Shown here: in pieces, positions 1 to 22,254 of the stretch
Numbering within the stretch: position 1 is the stretch's first letter
How the letters are laid out: every line of letters starts with the position of its first letter
DNA from: a virus
DNA: 22,254 nucleotides
Strand: one strand, 5' to 3'
IMG/VR virus record: IMGVR_UViG_3300040810_000626
Span: 1-22,254 of that record
The notes under the pieces: model-generated
Database searches by the model: none
What the model was told of the DNA's origin: nothing
Seen by the model: only the letters and a program-made list of their open reading frames with translations
Program-made: the position numbers and the translations under genes

Positions 1-278
1 AGGTAGGAGCAGTTGTACGCACCGATGGATGACTTCCGGGCTGGTTCCCCGGCTGTCCATGCTAGCCGCATAGAAGGCATCACTTCAAAATTCAGCAGGG
101 CATCACGAATCTCTTCTACTTCTGCTGGAGAGAGCAACGCAGAGGGTACCACTTCTTGGTAGTAGCTGACTACCCGGTCGACCATCTCTTCATAAGTCTC
201 TCGTCTCATCTTTTCGGGAACCCATCGGAGGTAGGTCCGGTAGGCTACGAATTCGGCTAATTTATTAGGGAATTGCAT
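1..278 (-). CDS. nrdJ: Class II (B12-dependent) ribonucleotide reductase, N-terminal part, cut by window edge
   Basis: The reverse strand is open from an ATG at 278 to the window edge, giving the first 92 residues; the 3' part lies outside. The translation begins MQFPNKLAEFVAYRTYLRWV and continues with RRETYEEMVDRVV, then EVMPSMRLAWTAGE and GAYNCSYL. This matches the N-terminal region of class II ribonucleotide reductases, where a VMPSMR...TAG...YNCSY pattern precedes the thiyl-radical barrel; the Cys of YNCSY lies in the conserved active-site region. The enzyme would reduce ribonucleotides to deoxyribonucleotides using adenosylcobalamin, supplying DNA precursors in the cytoplasm. It is the last gene of the leftward cluster seen here. 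A strong hairpin terminator lies only about 30 nt upstream of the start. Assignment rests on recognised sequence pattern; the catalytic C-terminal half is not visible. Confidence 0.8.
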   Translation of the reverse strand, partial: MQFPNKLAEFVAYRTYLRWVPEKMRRETYEEMVDRVVSYYQEVVPSALLSPAEVEEIRDALLNFEVMPSMRLAWTAGEPARKSSIGAYNCSY

Positions 279-641: not shown

Positions 642-814
642 TGGAACAATGCGTCAGGGTAGTGGGGAGCATTCTCGTCGAGGTCTTCGATATCAGCGTC
701 GATGGTCTCGATCCATGTGTCAGGGGTGAAGGTGTGTGTGGTCAGTGCAGTCTGAAAATTTTCCGTTGTCTCCACAATGCTGTGGTCTTTTAATCGCTTT
801 ACTTGATAAATCAT
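638..814 (-). CDS. Hypothetical small protein, 58 aa
   Basis: An ATG at 814, preceded by AAAGGCTCAAA like the other leftward genes, opens a 58-residue frame starting MIYQVKRLKDHSIVETTENF and ending PHYPDALFQ. The C-terminal half is acidic (IDADIEDLDENA). It ends in an ATGA overlap with the 88-aa gene. The main oddity is a 95-nt overlap in another frame with the 3' end of the zinc-ribbon gene (stop at 720). Either both are used, or the zinc-ribbon gene has been extended into it. Function unknown. Support is the stereotyped start signal and the coupled downstream start. Confidence 0.6.
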   Translation of the reverse strand: MIYQVKRLKDHSIVETTENFQTALTTHTFTPDTWIETIDADIEDLDENAPHYPDALFQ

Positions 815-1202
815 TTTGAGCCTTTAAAGATCTAAAGTAGTTGGTTGTCTGTTCAACTTTGTAGCATCCACAGGACTTGGAACTACCCCGGAGAACGGAC
901 GTAAGTCGAAGCAGGGAGGTGTAGCCGCACGAGCATCGGCACTTAGCATAACGATGGGTATTGATGACAGGGCCTAGCTCAAGGATCGTCCAACGATTGT
1001 GGGTAGTACCGACCACTTTGAGAAGTTCTCGGGATTTACCACACCCACAGGATTTAGACTTACCAGCCTTGAGATCATCGACCCTGACATAGTTTTTTCT
1101 CATGCAGACACAACGGGCGAGGACATATTGATGCTGCAGGTCACCGACTTCGTGTGGTGCCCTTGAGAGTACTTGCCAGTAACCAAAGTATTGATTGATC
1201 AT
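720..1202 (-). CDS. Protein with two tandem Cys-rich zinc-ribbon-like repeats
   Basis: Starting from the ATG at 1202 the product has 160 residues. It contains two copies of a short module: an aromatic G-x-W-x-V/I-L start, a C-x-C or C-x-C-x-C-G pair, then L-x-x-G-x-S-K-SCGC. Copy one runs from YFGYWQVLSRA to KSKSCGCG; copy two from NRWTILELGP to SSKSCGCYK. Such modules recur in phage proteins, often next to AP2 or HNH nuclease domains, and probably bind Zn and nucleic acid; no nuclease domain is present here. The longer open frame to 1334 would run through a hairpin at 1222-1246, so the ATG after the hairpin is preferred, although its SD is poor. The last 95 nt overlap the 58-aa gene, which is unusual. 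Confidence 0.6.
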   Translation of the reverse strand: MINQYFGYWQVLSRAPHEVGDLQHQYVLARCVCMRKNYVRVDDLKAGKSKSCGCGKSRELLKVVGTTHNRWTILELGPVINTHRYAKCRCSCGYTSLLRLTSVLRGSSKSCGCYKVEQTTNYFRSLKAQNDLSSKAIKRPQHCGDNGKFSDCTDHTHLHP

Positions 1203-1221
1203 AGCGTCAAAAGAAAGTGAT

Positions 1222-1246
1222 GACACCCCGATACCTCCGGGGTGCC
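1222..1246 (-). repeat. Post-stop intergenic hairpin (family member, loop reversed)
   Basis: CACCCCG (1224-1230) pairs with CGGGGTG (1238-1244) around a 7-nt loop ATACCTC. It lies 10 nt past the stop of the 113-aa leftward gene. Compared with the other members the GATAC loop sequence occurs on the opposite strand. On the leftward transcript it is followed by the U-rich stretch ATCACTTTCTTTT, so it may also terminate weakly. Confidence 0.6.
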
Positions 1247-1255
1247 GTGGGTTAA

Positions 1256-1597
1256 TTAAGAAGTTTTCTGCCCTACAGTGGGAAAAGATTGAAATACGAT
1301 CTCGATACCTCCACCTTCTGCCCAGTCCAACCATGCGTAGAAAGAACGGTGAGACGGAAGGAACTCATCAGTCTCCGGTGGGATTATTTCATCAAGGGCT
1401 TCGTCCCCTTTAAGTAATTCCAAAAGGTGGAACTTACTGAGATCAAGTTCGTACTCGTAAAAAACCTCTCCTGCTACCCCCACCGTATGGTAGGTAACTC
1501 TATGACGCTTTGCATGGCGAATAAAATGGCGTAGAGTCCTAGAACCCTCTAGGTAATCCGGTGATGCTGGGGATATCTTTCTTGATTTGATTAACAT
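1256..1597 (-). CDS. Hypothetical protein, 113 aa
   Basis: An ATG at 1597 follows TTTTGAGGCTTT, the stereotyped leftward start signal. The 113-residue product begins MLIKSRKISPASPDYLEGSR and has a basic N-terminal third (HFIRHAKRHR) and an acidic C-terminal half (LLKGDEALDEIIPPETDEFL) ending with aromatic residues (SFYAWLDWAEGG). I see no membrane segment or known motif and do not recognise the family. It lies downstream of the DUF932 gene and is followed 10 nt after its stop by a hairpin of the intergenic family. Being a gene is supported by the start signal and spacing. Confidence 0.6.
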   Translation of the reverse strand: MLIKSRKISPASPDYLEGSRTLRHFIRHAKRHRVTYHTVGVAGEVFYEYELDLSKFHLLELLKGDEALDEIIPPETDEFLPSHRSFYAWLDWAEGGGIEIVFQSFPTVGQKTS

Positions 1598-5411: not shown

Positions 5412-6023
5412 TCACTTAGGTGTGATGACTACATTCGCAGGACGGGTCAGCACTGTCTGAGGACAGCCCTTGTAGGTCTCGTGGGATTTGATGGTTGCCT
5501 TGAGGGTGTACTGGTCCCCGGTCTTAACTTCGGTGATGCGTCGACCCTCGTCTTCGATGATGGTCAGAGGGATAGCGAGACCCGTGTACTTGTAGACGTT
5601 GCCATCGGCATCTTCAAAGATGAGGATGTCCTTGTAGCCGGGGTCCCGGTAGAATTGTGGTCGGTACTCGAACCCGGTCTTGTACTTGAGGGTCAAAACA
5701 AACTCTCGACGTTCCTTGATTTCACCCACATGGCCCTTGGTCTTGATGGCTTCGGCACGTTCAGCATCACGCTCGAGTTTGCGTTCGGCCCGTTTGGCTC
5801 TGATCTTGCGGACAGCCTCAACCTGTCGAGGTGAAAGCTTACCGTAGGTGTCGAAGGATTCTGCCATCTGCTTGAGGAATGGGTTGCCGTAGTGCTCGTA
5901 CTTGATGTAGCTGATAATCTCCGCTGCATCACTGACGGTACGATGAAAGGTTGTGGTGGCGTTGTGAATGATACGGGCCTTGGTCGCTGCAGCGTAGCGT
6001 TCTGGGTATTCGATGATGTTCAT
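5412..6023 (-). CDS. Hypothetical protein, 203 aa, helical N-terminus with beta-rich C-terminus
   Basis: The N-terminal half is helical and ends in KQMAESFDTYGKLSPRQVEA followed by a basic coiled stretch (VRKIRAKRAERKLERDAERA). The K-L-S-x-R-Q-V-x-A-V-x-K-I pattern is a recurrent helical motif in phage and plasmid proteins of DNA metabolism. The C-terminal ~100 residues look beta-rich (REFVLTLKYKTGFE; YTLKATIKSHETYKGCPQTV; LTRPANVVI), compatible with an OB-like fold. A role in single-stranded DNA binding is a guess. The start at 6023 follows TAAGAGGCATC. The gene is followed by a conserved hairpin. No membrane segment. Confidence 0.7.
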   Translation of the reverse strand: MNIIEYPERYAAATKARIIHNATTTFHRTVSDAAEIISYIKYEHYGNPFLKQMAESFDTYGKLSPRQVEAVRKIRAKRAERKLERDAERAEAIKTKGHVGEIKERREFVLTLKYKTGFEYRPQFYRDPGYKDILIFEDADGNVYKYTGLAIPLTIIEDEGRRITEVKTGDQYTLKATIKSHETYKGCPQTVLTRPANVVITPK

Positions 6024-17588: not shown

Positions 17589-17816
17589 ATGGCTATTACG
17601 ACTACCGCTTACGCTACGACTAGCGGTAATCTTTACGGAGACCTGTCAACCGAAGATGCGTTGACGATTCAAAGTAAGATGCTACCTGTAGCGAAGAAGA
17701 ACCTGACTTTTGCTCGGTTCGCTCAAAAAGATACCAAAGGCCGCAATGATGGCAACGTCATGCGACACAGACGGTACAAGAAATTTCCTCTAAACGATAC
17801 ACCGTTGGGAGAGGGT
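17589..17816 (+). CDS. Major capsid protein (N4-gp56 type), exon 1
   Basis: Exon 1 of the major capsid gene gives 76 residues, MAITTTAYATTSGNLYGDLS to KKFPLNDTPLGEG, from an ATG with TAGGAGACCAAA upstream. Reading on beyond 17816 gives only KLSYAP and a stop at 17835 inside the intron. N4-gp56-type capsid proteins have an uninterrupted R-Y...T-PL-x-EG-VTP...QYG-x-Y-V-x-x-TD-x-x-x-L; here the left half of this motif ends at Gly76 and the right half begins at Val77 of exon 2. Spliced product: 364 residues, normal for the family. Without splicing only a truncated, nonfunctional 82-residue peptide could be made. Confidence 0.88.
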
Positions 17817-18067
17817 AAACTGAGTTATGCCCCCTAATCTGGCGACAGGTTAGTGAAAATGCCGTGAATTGCTGGGAACTCCAGAACGGACAATCAGCAG
17901 CCAAGCCCGAAAGGGAAGGTTCAACGACTATCTCGAAAGAGAGTAGGATCAAGCGATCCGAAGTGCGGCACACCTCAAGTAGGTGAAGATATAGTCTGAA
18001 CTTTATAGGAATATAAAGCAGTCCTTTTGGACGGTCTAAGTCTAGCGAACTTAGATGAACACTTTTG
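17817..18067 (+). ncRNA. Group I self-splicing intron (subgroup IA-like), 251 nt, no ORF
   Basis: The interruption folds as a group I ribozyme. P1: exon GAGAGGGU (17809-17816) with GCCCCCU (17829-17835), including the splice-site U-G pair at U17816-G17829 and one A-C mismatch. P2: 8 bp with GCGA loop (17834-17853). P3: UGCCGUG (17860-17866) with UGCGGCA (17964-17970). P4: UGCUG (17870-17874) with CAGCA (17895-17899). P5: UCC with GGA (17880-17890). P6/P6a: CC/GG and CCC-GAAA-GGG (17901-17919). P7: GACUAU (17926-17931) with AUAGUC (17991-17996). P7.1: 17932-17941. P7.2: 17946-17959. P8: CACCU/AGGUG (17971-17985). P9: CUUUAUA-GGAA-UAUAAAG (18001-18018). P9.1: 18021-18032. P9.2: 18035-18055. P10: GAGUUAU (17822-17828) with 3' exon GUAACUC (18068-18074). 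It ends in the omega G (18067). P7.1/P7.2 are a subgroup IA hallmark. No homing endonuclease ORF is present. Confidence 0.93.
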
Positions 18068-18934
18068 GTAACTCCCGATTTTGACCAGCTAGAATCAGAA
18101 GTGGTCAGCACAACCATCCGCCAGTACGGTAGATATGTGCCTGTGACCGATCTGATGGAACTGCTGGGACAAGATCCCTACATCAGTATTATTACAGAAC
18201 GTCAGGCGCAGCAAGCTGCAGAAGTGATTGACCTGTTGTGCTACAAGACCTTCCGTAATCCAGCCAACACCATTTATGCTGGTGGGGCCGCAATTACCTC
18301 TCGTGCTGCAGTCAACGGGGTAGTGTCCACGGCTGATCTGGATCGTGCAATCCGACACTTAGAGGGTCTAGATGCAGAGAAACTGACAGAAATGCTAGCA
18401 GCAACTCCTGACGTTTCTACGCAACCTTTGCGACCTAGCTATGTTGCGATCTGCCACCCGATCTTGCGCTATGATTTAGAGCAGTTATCTGGTTTCATAC
18501 CTGTCGAGCAGTACGCCAATAGCTCACAAGCAATGGACTTTGAGATTGGTTCCTACAAGGGAGTTCGCTTCCTCGTAACCACTCAAGCAGTTGCTTTTGA
18601 TCGTAATGGTGACAACTCTCTCGGTGCTGGCGCAGCAGGGACATCTCTCGTAGAGGATGCTTCCGGTTCATATGCTGAAGTTTACCCGATTGTGATCTTC
18701 GCAAAAGATGCTGTAGGCACTGCAACTATCGGGGGAATGGATTCAATCGTTCCCAAAGTTGTCCGCCCGACACCTTCTGGAACCGATCCCTTGGGTCAAC
18801 GTGGTACAGTAGGATACACTTTCATGCATGGTCAGTTAATCCTTAACGAGGATTGGATCATTACAATTGAAACAGGTGTATCAACACTGGCTTCCACAGT
18901 GACCACAGGAACCCTCTACGCAGCAAATAGCTGA
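18068..18934 (+). CDS. Major capsid protein (N4-gp56 type), exon 2
   Basis: Exon 2 supplies 288 residues, opening VTPDFDQLESEVVSTTIRQY then GRYVPVTDLMELLGQDPY, the family's conserved VTP...QYG-x-Y-V-x-x-TD stretch. Later it has NTIYAGGAAITSRAAVNG, LRPSYVAICHPILRYDLEQL and GFIPVEQYANSSQAMDFEIG, typical of the N4-gp56 capsid fold. It lacks a start with a ribosome-binding site of its own; the TTG at 18065 is the end of the intron. Joined to exon 1 at Gly76-Val77 it restores the full 364-residue shell protein. The next gene follows after a hairpin, and neighbours are the scaffold and head-completion genes. Confidence 0.9.
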   Translation, partial: VTPDFDQLESEVVSTTIRQYGRYVPVTDLMELLGQDPYISIITERQAQQAAEVIDLLCYKTFRNPANTIYAGGAAITSRAAVNGVVSTADLDRAIRHLEGLDAEKLTEMLAATPDVSTQPLRPSYVAICHPILRYDLEQLSGFIPVEQYANSSQAMDFEIGSYKGVRFLVTTQAVAFDRNGDNSLGAGAAGTSLVEDASGSYAEVYPIVIFAKDAVGTATIGGMDSIVPKVVRPTPSGTDPLGQRGTVGYTFMHGQLILNEDWIITIETGVSTLASTVTTGTLYAANS

Positions 18935-19992: not shown

Positions 19993-21022
19993 ACGATTAC
20001 TACAGGATACCACAAATCGTAGATGGACAGTTGCAGAGATCAACGATTACATCTTTGATGCTCAACACGAGTTCATCCGCCTAACTGGATTCCCTTTATA
20101 CACTACAAACGTTGATCTACAGGGGTTGGTTGCAACCTATGATGTACCAACCCTGACTTCAAACAGTGTGACGTATCCTGCCTTGATGGATATTCAACGT
20201 GCTCGGGTACGCAATCGTGCAGTAGAAATCCCGATCATCAGTCCCACCGTACTGGATGAGGCTTCTTCCTTCCTGCATGAGCCTGTAGATGCAGATTGGC
20301 GTTCCCAGACAGGCCCAATCCGGGCTATTGTCTTGGATCATCAGTCCGCTTCCACCTTCCGACTTTATCCGATTCCTGCTGGCAACATCGTCAGTACGGT
20401 CACTGCTTCTTTTAACGCTACAACAACATCGATCACTGTTTCTGACGCATCAGATTTAGCAGTCGGGATGTATGTTGGTGGGAATACCAATATTCCTGAG
20501 AAGACTGCCATCTCAGCGATCAGTGGCACTACGATCACGTTGACAAAAACTACGACCAATACAGGGACTGTTTCCAATGCGTCAGTCACGTTTGTATCGT
20601 CTAATGTTTTTTCCAACTACCTCCTACAAACTCCGACTACTGATGTGGATGCCATTAGTGGAACCGATCTGCTTTTTGATGCTAGCGGTTTCTTTCAGGG
20701 TACTACCGTAGTTCTACCGTCTATAGAATTGCAGGGAACTCGGAATCCTCCACGCAACGCTTTACAAAACTACGCTAATGTGGCTGGAGGAACAGACACC
20801 CCGATCATCGGATCACGTTTTCACGAAGCGTTGGTCTTCGGTGCAGTGGAACGGGCTTATCTCAAGGAAAACGAACTCCGCAACGTTCAGAAGAGCAATG
20901 TCTTCAGAGAACGCTTCCTCCAGTTTGTTGCCGAAGCAAGAAGAGAAGAGAGTGAAAACCGGATTCGCAGAGTAGGAGGAGCAAATCGGGTGAGAATGAA
21001 AGTTAGCAGGAGGTGGGTATGA
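19955..21022 (+). CDS. Phage head-tail adaptor protein with inserted beta domain
   Basis: The 355-residue protein starts MTLTLGNLQDRVERLLQDTT then NRRWTVAEINDYIFDAQHEF. The L-x-x-L-x-x-R-V...L-x-D-x-x-x-x-RW-x-x-x-E-I-x-x-x-I-x-x-A-Q-x-E motif is typical of podoviral head-tail adaptors. The C-terminal helical part (RFHEALVFGAVERAYLKENE) also matches these connector proteins, which dock under the portal. Residues about 146-215 (VSTVTASFNATTTSITVSDA, then SDLAVGMYVGGNTNIPEK) look like an extra Ig-like or jellyroll-like beta domain inserted in the adaptor; I see no such insert in the usual pattern. The stop overlaps the tail-fibre ATG (ATGA). The start in the upstream gene overlap is supported by the family N-terminus. 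Confidence 0.75.
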   Translation: MTLTLGNLQDRVERLLQDTTNRRWTVAEINDYIFDAQHEFIRLTGFPLYTTNVDLQGLVATYDVPTLTSNSVTYPALMDIQRARVRNRAVEIPIISPTVLDEASSFLHEPVDADWRSQTGPIRAIVLDHQSASTFRLYPIPAGNIVSTVTASFNATTTSITVSDASDLAVGMYVGGNTNIPEKTAISAISGTTITLTKTTTNTGTVSNASVTFVSSNVFSNYLLQTPTTDVDAISGTDLLFDASGFFQGTTVVLPSIELQGTRNPPRNALQNYANVAGGTDTPIIGSRFHEALVFGAVERAYLKENELRNVQKSNVFRERFLQFVAEARREESENRIRRVGGANRVRMKVSRRWV

Positions 21023-22254
21023 CGGTTTCCGTTGTAGGGTCAAACAATGAAACGGTAGTCTTTCAGACCCGTAAAGTTAAAGGGTCTGATCTAGAAACAG
21101 ACGCAACGCTTCTTGACCTTGATGACATTCCCATGCCCTCTGGTGTGTTGGATTCCAACAACCAGACCTATGCTAATTTCTCTGCACTTTATGCCGATCT
21201 TCCAACAAACCAGAATATCCGTGGCCCAGAGGGGCCACAAGGCCCGGCAATTGACAGTGTATCGCTAGCACAGTCAGTCGATCTCTCCACCGTCACAATG
21301 ACCTTTGGTTATACCAAGAATAATCAGGGGTATACGGTAGGAACAACACCCTCCTTTACAATTCCTGCTGGCCCAACTGGCCCTACTGGAACAGGAATTC
21401 AGTATGTTTCGCACGATACTGATAATCATACCCTGACTTTTCAGTTTACGGACACACTCCCCGATAAAACCGTTACCTTACCGCAAGGAGACATTGGCCC
21501 GGCAGGTCGTAGTATTTCAAGCATCTCCAAATCAGGAGATGTGCTGACAATCAACTACGATGATGGTTCCTCTCCGACCCAGATCTCAGGAATCCGTGGC
21601 CCGGCAGGAGATGCTGCAACTGTAACCGTAGACTCTACAAACACGTTAGCGGCAGGATCGTCCGCCAGTGTGACGGAAACGGGAACCAGCAATTCTCAGA
21701 ATCGGGAATTGATTTTCAACATCCCTGCTGGTGCAGACGGAACAGACGGAGTAGACGGGGTAGACGGAAATGATGGGGTTTCTGTTACCGGAGTCAACCA
21801 AGTCAACGCAAGCACGATCAATTTTAGCCTATCCGACAGTACCACTACTTCCAACATCACACTTCCTTCGGCTTCTGCCTCTGCCATTTTACCAAGCTAC
21901 ACGAACAACGCAGGAAAAGTTCTCGCAGTCAACAGCAATGCTAATGACATCGAATGGATTGCGGTATCAGGGACAGGGACGGTCACCAGTGTTGGACTGA
22001 CAGGTGCGAATGGAATCACATTCTCAGGAAGCCCGATCACAACTAGTGGCACAATTAGCACAACCGTAGATGCCGCTACGCTAAAAAGTCATTTAGCGAT
22101 TGATTGGTCAGACGTTGCGAATAAACCAAGTATTCCTGTTTCGGGAACGGATTTCGATCCGGTTGGAACAGACAACAGTACAAACGTCACACTCAACACC
22201 GCAAGTTATGATTATCTTTCTTTAGCTGGTCAAACGATAACATTAGGACAAGTT
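21019..22254 (+). CDS. Tail fibre-like protein with collagen-like repeats, cut by window edge
   Basis: The frame is open from ATG 21019 (AGGAGGTGGGT upstream, ATGA overlap) to the edge, 412 residues so far. It has Gly-x-y triplet stretches: RGPEGPQGPA (68-77), GPTGPTGTG (about 120), IRGPAGDA (about 190) and GADGTDGVDGVDGNDG (about 238-253). Between them are beta-rich segments. Further on, GKVLAVNSNANDIEW then GTGTVTSVGLTGANGITFSG resembles repeats common in marine and freshwater phage tail fibres. Collagen-like segments form trimeric stalks. It probably binds host surface polymers or caps the tail; the receptor-binding end lies outside the window. There is no signal peptide, as expected for a virion protein. 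Confidence 0.8.
   Translation, partial: MTVSVVGSNNETVVFQTRKVKGSDLETDATLLDLDDIPMPSGVLDSNNQTYANFSALYADLPTNQNIRGPEGPQGPAIDSVSLAQSVDLSTVTMTFGYTKNNQGYTVGTTPSFTIPAGPTGPTGTGIQYVSHDTDNHTLTFQFTDTLPDKTVTLPQGDIGPAGRSISSISKSGDVLTINYDDGSSPTQISGIRGPAGDAATVTVDSTNTLAAGSSASVTETGTSNSQNRELIFNIPAGADGTDGVDGVDGNDGVSVTGVNQVNASTINFSLSDSTTTSNITLPSASASAILPSYTNNAGKVLAVNSNANDIEWIAVSGTGTVTSVGLTGANGITFSGSPITTSGTISTTVDAATLKSHLAIDWSDVANKPSIPVSGTDFDPVGTDNSTNVTLNTASYDYLSLAGQTITLGQV

Follow-up and report, generated by a model that had tools for sequence, protein, structure and literature searches.

A compact ORF-less group I intron, very probably spliced, in an N4-type phage capsid gene and its likely horizontal movement

Introduction

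Why does the major capsid gene of a virus lie in two pieces, and, if an intron divides it, how might an element with no endonuclease of its own have come to sit there? These questions arise in the 22,254-nt stretch of viral DNA analyzed here in full (IMG/VR record IMGVR_UViG_3300040810_000626; hereafter the window), in which the gene is spread over two ORFs of the same strand, one of 82 codons (17589–17837) and one of 289 codons (18065–18934), with 251 nt between the codons for Gly76 and Val77 (insertion phase 0). A preliminary description, made from the letters of the window, had taken the interruption for a group I intron; its account of two capsid halves, in order on one strand and separated by 251 nt that contain a stop codon, agrees with the ORFs and with the stop at 17835–17837. 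Automatic annotation will break this capsid gene into two proteins.

Host gene and exact borders of the interruption

The protein encoded by the joined halves matched Pfam PF25209 (31.5 bits; cut-off 27) and phrog_1357, a major head protein family (E = 2.6e-52), and a profile of its relatives matched N4-type capsid proteins of solved structure. For the protein of the intron-free locus L001, a predicted structure (pLDDT 73) returned the capsids of N4, B2, and Moo19 as best Foldseek matches, and in this HK97-type model the splice junction sits in a predicted loop between strands 57–63 and 86–92. The spliced product is an N4-type capsid protein of the HK97 fold; the capsid identity proposed earlier is thus borne out by PF25209, phrog_1357, and N4 as best fold match. 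Excision joins the halves in frame and restores the EG-VTP motif, as had also been claimed; across 25 relatives Glu75, Gly76, and Pro79 do not vary at all, and Val77 and Thr78 hardly vary.

Queried with the joined protein, IMG/VR yielded 24 loci, in which the capsid gene was either whole (~1092–1116 nt) or in two pieces lying 251–256 nt apart at codon 76/77. Comparison with the uninterrupted genes revealed an exact empty site, GAGGGT/GTRACTCCC, and a continuous protein: no bases lie between the halves, which meet as GAGGGT/GTGACTCCC or GAGGGT/GTAACTCCC, or, in a variant found in L010, as GAAGGT/GTGACGCC. Removing the intron from intron-bearing loci likewise leaves an uninterrupted capsid frame. 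The exact empty site and continuous frame together set the splice sites at 17816/17817 and 18067/18068, so that the borders first proposed, with a 5' exon ending in U and an intron ending in G, are exact to the base. The resulting features are as follows.

17589–17816, plus strand: 5' exon of the major capsid gene, Met1–Gly76 (codons 1–76), 3' end GGU (ORF; alignment to intron-free genes)
17817–18067, plus strand: interruption read as an ORF-less group I intron, 251 nt, phase 0, last base G (RF00028; empty site; covariation)
17835–17837, plus strand: in-frame TAA at the start of P2, terminating translation of unspliced mRNA (sequence; ORF)
18068–18934, plus strand: 3' exon, from Val77 through the stop codon of the major capsid gene (keeps the frame of the 5' exon; uninterrupted in intron-free relatives)

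A group I ribozyme supported by covariation

The Rfam group I model RF00028 had one match only in the whole window, at 17807–18018, with a score of 89.4 bits (E = 5.4e-22) against a gathering score of 50, and scores ranged from 82.5 to 93.3 bits across the window and all intron-bearing relatives tested. An unconstrained minimum free energy (MFE) fold already contained P1–P6, P7.1, P7.2, P8, P9, P9.1, and P9.2, and its stability (z = −3.2) was equalled by none of 200 shuffled sequences; P7 and P10, being pseudoknots, were added by hand and checked against the alignment. Among seven distinct intron sequences, which formed the covariation set, standard pairing was retained in 97.4% of cells and the core helices were kept, while compensatory changes, with both sides altered, were found at 17 pairs. 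These amounted to 39 compensatory cells, compared with a shuffled mean of 14.5 (0 of 500 shuffles as high) and with only 0–7 cells and 0–3 such pairs when partners were slid by 1–3 columns as a control. The structure of the intron is not due to chance. Its helices are listed below.

17811–17834, plus strand: P1, exon GAGGGU (17811–17816) with the internal guide (17829–17834), U.G at the 5' splice site and one A.C mismatch (invariant in all intron copies)
17822–17828, plus strand: 5' side of P10, seven pairs with the 3' exon (18068–18074), the last a U.G (invariant in all copies)
17835–17852, plus strand: P2, seven pairs (compensatory change in L112)
17860–17970, plus strand: P3, 17860–17866 with 17964–17970 (RF00028; fold)
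17870–17899, plus strand: P4 (17870–17875 with 17894–17899) around P5 (17880–17882 with 17888–17890) (RF00028; fold; compensatory change in P5)
17900–17920, plus strand: P6 (17900–17902 with 17918–17920) and P6a (17906–17908 with 17913–17915) (CG-to-GC swaps at two adjacent pairs of P6)
17926–17996, plus strand: P7, the guanosine-binding helix, 17926–17930 with 17992–17996 (RF00028; paired by hand; invariant)
17931–17959, plus strand: P7.1 (17931–17934 with 17939–17942) and P7.2 (17946–17950 with 17955–17959) (five compensatory pairs)
17971–17985, plus strand: P8 (compensatory change)
18001–18055, plus strand: P9 (18001–18007 with 18012–18018), P9.1 (18021–18024 with 18029–18032), and P9.2 (18035–18041 with 18049–18055) (four compensatory pairs in P9)

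In P7.2, three pairs have changed among the intron copies. The few cells of P9.1 and P9.2 that fail to pair reflect alignment slips of one column, and the copy in L110 forms both helices. The helices of the preliminary description, including a P10 of seven bases with the 3' exon, are therefore recovered by the RF00028 match, the MFE fold, and the compensatory pairs, and its statement that the intron holds no ORF extends to every copy. Judging by the elements P7.1 and P7.2, the intron is probably of IA type.

Taken together, these patterns make it very probable that the interruption is a group I intron that splices. A compact 251-nt ribozyme, with P2, P7.1/P7.2, and P9.1/P9.2, would interrupt the N4-type capsid gene at Gly76/Val77; its transcript would fold, with P7 binding guanosine, be cut after U17816 as positioned in P1, and undergo exon ligation via P10, so that the capsid frame is restored. 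Until splicing, ribosomes would be barred from the core by the stop at 17835. The element would also have been transferred between the capsid genes of divergent phages, into one and the same conserved codon pair, with DNA-level homing, in which a few flanking exon bases were copied, as the most likely route; since the intron carries no endonuclease, the cutting enzyme would have been lost or supplied in trans. Both splicing in cells and the homing mechanism are steps that we infer from the sequences.

Intron-bearing and intron-free relatives, and a possible spliced message

An ORF-less intron of 251–257 nt occupies the same phase-0 position in eleven IMG/VR contigs and is precisely absent from L001–L010 and L014. 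Scanning for the 5' end of the intron added two loci, L110 and L112, to those from the protein search, both interrupted at the same codon pair; the same 5' end was not found in genome_contigs. Three matches to a looser intron pattern (L117–L119) were rejected as chance matches, having neither an RF00028 match nor a capsid gene. One search for relatives used a peptide that crosses the insertion site, so that intron-bearing genes were under-sampled, and the numbers of loci with and without the intron should not be read as frequencies.

Close relatives of the window include L011–L013, whose 5' exon protein is 100% identical to its own. L001 (2601 bases) lacks precisely the intron and shares 99.9% identity with the L011 and L012 exons once these are joined, and 99.6–99.7% with the same two loci downstream of the capsid gene; it also has the GTA codon common to intron-bearing alleles. 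Judging from these identities, L001 may be a spliced mRNA captured in a metatranscriptome, or else the product of a very recent gain or loss. Its dataset (3300016743) falls in an accession range that we presume to be that of salt-marsh metatranscriptomes, a point not counted as evidence.

Two other readings of these loci bear on whether splicing occurs. L001 could be a true intron-free DNA allele and not a spliced mRNA, and we give this somewhat less than an even chance: intron-free DNA alleles are common, but the near-perfect match to the intron-bearing L011 and L012 over both exons, together with the GTA haplotype, speaks against it. Far more remote is a gene that is truly split into two capsid polypeptides of 82 and 289 aa, the second starting from a TTG at 18065. 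Both ORFs are indeed open in the DNA; nonetheless, the covarying group I structure, the exact empty site, and the continuous protein of close relatives all argue against such a split, as does the position of the break, which would fall in the predicted loop of the HK97-type fold, and we regard it as extremely improbable beside an intron that splices.

Two intron-free loci showed further peculiarities. The capsid gene of L008 (1337–2446) has the GTA codon that characterizes intron-bearing alleles, and precise intron loss is possible there. In L014 (5001–6102), the capsid gene departs from its relatives by a one-base frame change near codon 104, reflecting either an assembly error or a broken gene.

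Signs of horizontal movement

The intron is more alike between distant loci than are the exons that flank it. The capsid proteins of L110 and L112 share 60% (exon 1) and 44% (exon 2) identity with that of the window, and between the window and L110 the exon DNA is 65–66% identical whereas the first 195 nt of the intron are 86% identical. The nearest intron-free relatives of L110 are L062 and L064 (84% DNA identity), which read GAA GGG/GTG ACC CCG at the site, while L110 reads GAG GGT/GTA ACT CCC, the same letters as the window; beyond these five codons, on either side, L110 matches L062. Synonymous differences between L110 and L062 affect all 5 of the 5 site codons, compared with 91 of 295 elsewhere. 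We interpret the five-codon tract as evidence for co-conversion during homing, and hence for horizontal spread to the same site. Selection for P1 and P10 pairing could instead account for the identity of the flanking codons, although it covers only four of the five, because the third base of CCC lies outside both helices.

On the exon tree, intron presence requires at least five changes, two of them forced by well-supported branches, and the intron branches leading to L110 are about tenfold shorter than the exon branches. Movement within L018/L019 was not significant by the AU test, in which the intron data alone did not reject a clade of L018 and L019 (p-AU 0.42). From the identities, codon tract, and tree, the intron appears likely to have moved horizontally between capsid genes. 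Of the earlier suggestion that mobility had been lost or was borrowed, mobility itself is supported by these comparisons, whereas a mobilizing enzyme was not found.

How the intron came to this distribution might be explained otherwise, as the relic of an immobile, vertically inherited copy in an ancestor, from which many lineages lost theirs precisely. Consistent with this are the similar copies in close capsid relatives, the lack of an endonuclease, and the GTA codon of intron-bearing alleles in the intron-free L008 and L001, as expected after precise loss. Structured RNA may also evolve more slowly than codons, which could bear on the excess of intron over exon identity between the window and L110, but slowness leaves unexplained the five codons of L110 that match another lineage and not its nearest relative, and we consider vertical inheritance improbable relative to horizontal movement. 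One version of the mobility step in our preferred explanation is collaborative homing, in which a free-standing endonuclease cuts the intron-free gene at EG-VTP and repair copies the ORF-less intron in. Such homing is known in T3-like phages and cyanophages, as cited in PMC10448857 (Bonocora and Shub 2009; Zeng et al. 2009) and PMC3984707; as far as those citations describe them, these systems share with the window an ORF-less intron at a conserved site of an important phage gene, but have a free-standing endonuclease beside the gene that cuts the site, of which none was found for the window's intron. The short co-converted tract in L110 fits this mechanism, and an endonuclease gene of Stenotrophomonas phage StenR_269 (see below) offers a lead; on the other side, none of the intron-bearing loci has such a gene next to its capsid gene and the StenR_269 enzyme lacks a close relative in viral_contigs, leaving collaborative homing a serious possibility that falls short of probable. 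Slightly more tentative is the full combination, namely that an ORF-less ribozyme spreads among the N4-type capsid genes of distant phages through cutting in trans at the least variable codons of the family, EG/VTP, co-converting ~15 exon bases, with its spliced mRNA visible in an environmental contig.

Candidate endonucleases

No copy of the intron (251–257 nt) contains an endonuclease ORF, for which it is too small, and none was found adjoining the capsid gene in the intron-bearing loci, all of which are genome fragments only. In StenR_269 (L026), a free-standing LAGLIDADG-type gene (2538–2987) immediately precedes an intron-free capsid gene of the same N4-type family, which shares the EGVTP motif. 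In viral_contigs, a search for relatives of this endonuclease gave no close one and a single doubtful fragment.

The intron-bearing phage L112 encodes a small HNH protein of 79 aa (5743–5979, minus strand) between its terminase and portal genes, and we infer that it may be a packaging protein. In the window, an ORF of 204 aa (720–1334, minus strand) close to where a ribonucleotide reductase gene (3–278, minus strand) begins has repeated zinc-ribbon motifs and a partial match to phrog_374 (HNH endonuclease); similar repeats occur in larger relatives behind L002, L014, L037, and L051. This HNH-like ORF was rejected as a trans-acting endonuclease, having no match in Pfam, to a catalytic HNH domain or otherwise, and none in 'phages'.

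Relation to known phage introns

The preliminary description had called it notable that a capsid gene of this fold should hold a group I intron lacking a homing endonuclease. Neither feature is new in kind given published precedents. In mycobacteriophage LittleE, splicing of a capsid-gene intron was demonstrated by RT-PCR and N-terminal sequencing (PMC3706429); like that of the window, it is of group I type, interrupts the major capsid gene after a U, ends in G, and has intron-free relatives, but it is ~819 nt long with an endonuclease ORF and belongs to a different phage group, whereas the window's is 251 nt, ORF-less, and in an N4-type gene. The minor tail gene of BAKA and Optimus contains a 265-nt ORF-less intron with splicing shown by RT-PCR (PMC3706429), likewise small and in a virion structural gene, though in a tail gene of actinobacteriophages. 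As cited in PMC3706429, lactococcal phage Tuc2009, of a different phage family, also has a capsid subunit gene interrupted by a group I intron. The catalytic core resembles that of many phage introns. Those of T4 nrdD, Twort, Bacillus phage, and Vibrio phage D181 share it (~68–81% identity over core segments) but lie in other host genes, and many carry or adjoin endonuclease genes.

The locus is thus a well-supported further case of intron types already published, and part of its notability is restored by the evidence for horizontal spread at a conserved capsid site; our literature search found no paper naming both group I introns and N4-gp56. Because late expression of a capsid gene must be very high, an intron in it has to be spliced efficiently, and natural intron-bearing and intron-free alleles, with a likely case of horizontal transfer among them, make this a ready system for studying the movement of introns without endonucleases.

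Elsewhere in the window, a long ORF at 21013–22254 (plus strand) contains collagen-like GPxGP repeats and probably encodes a tail fibre protein.
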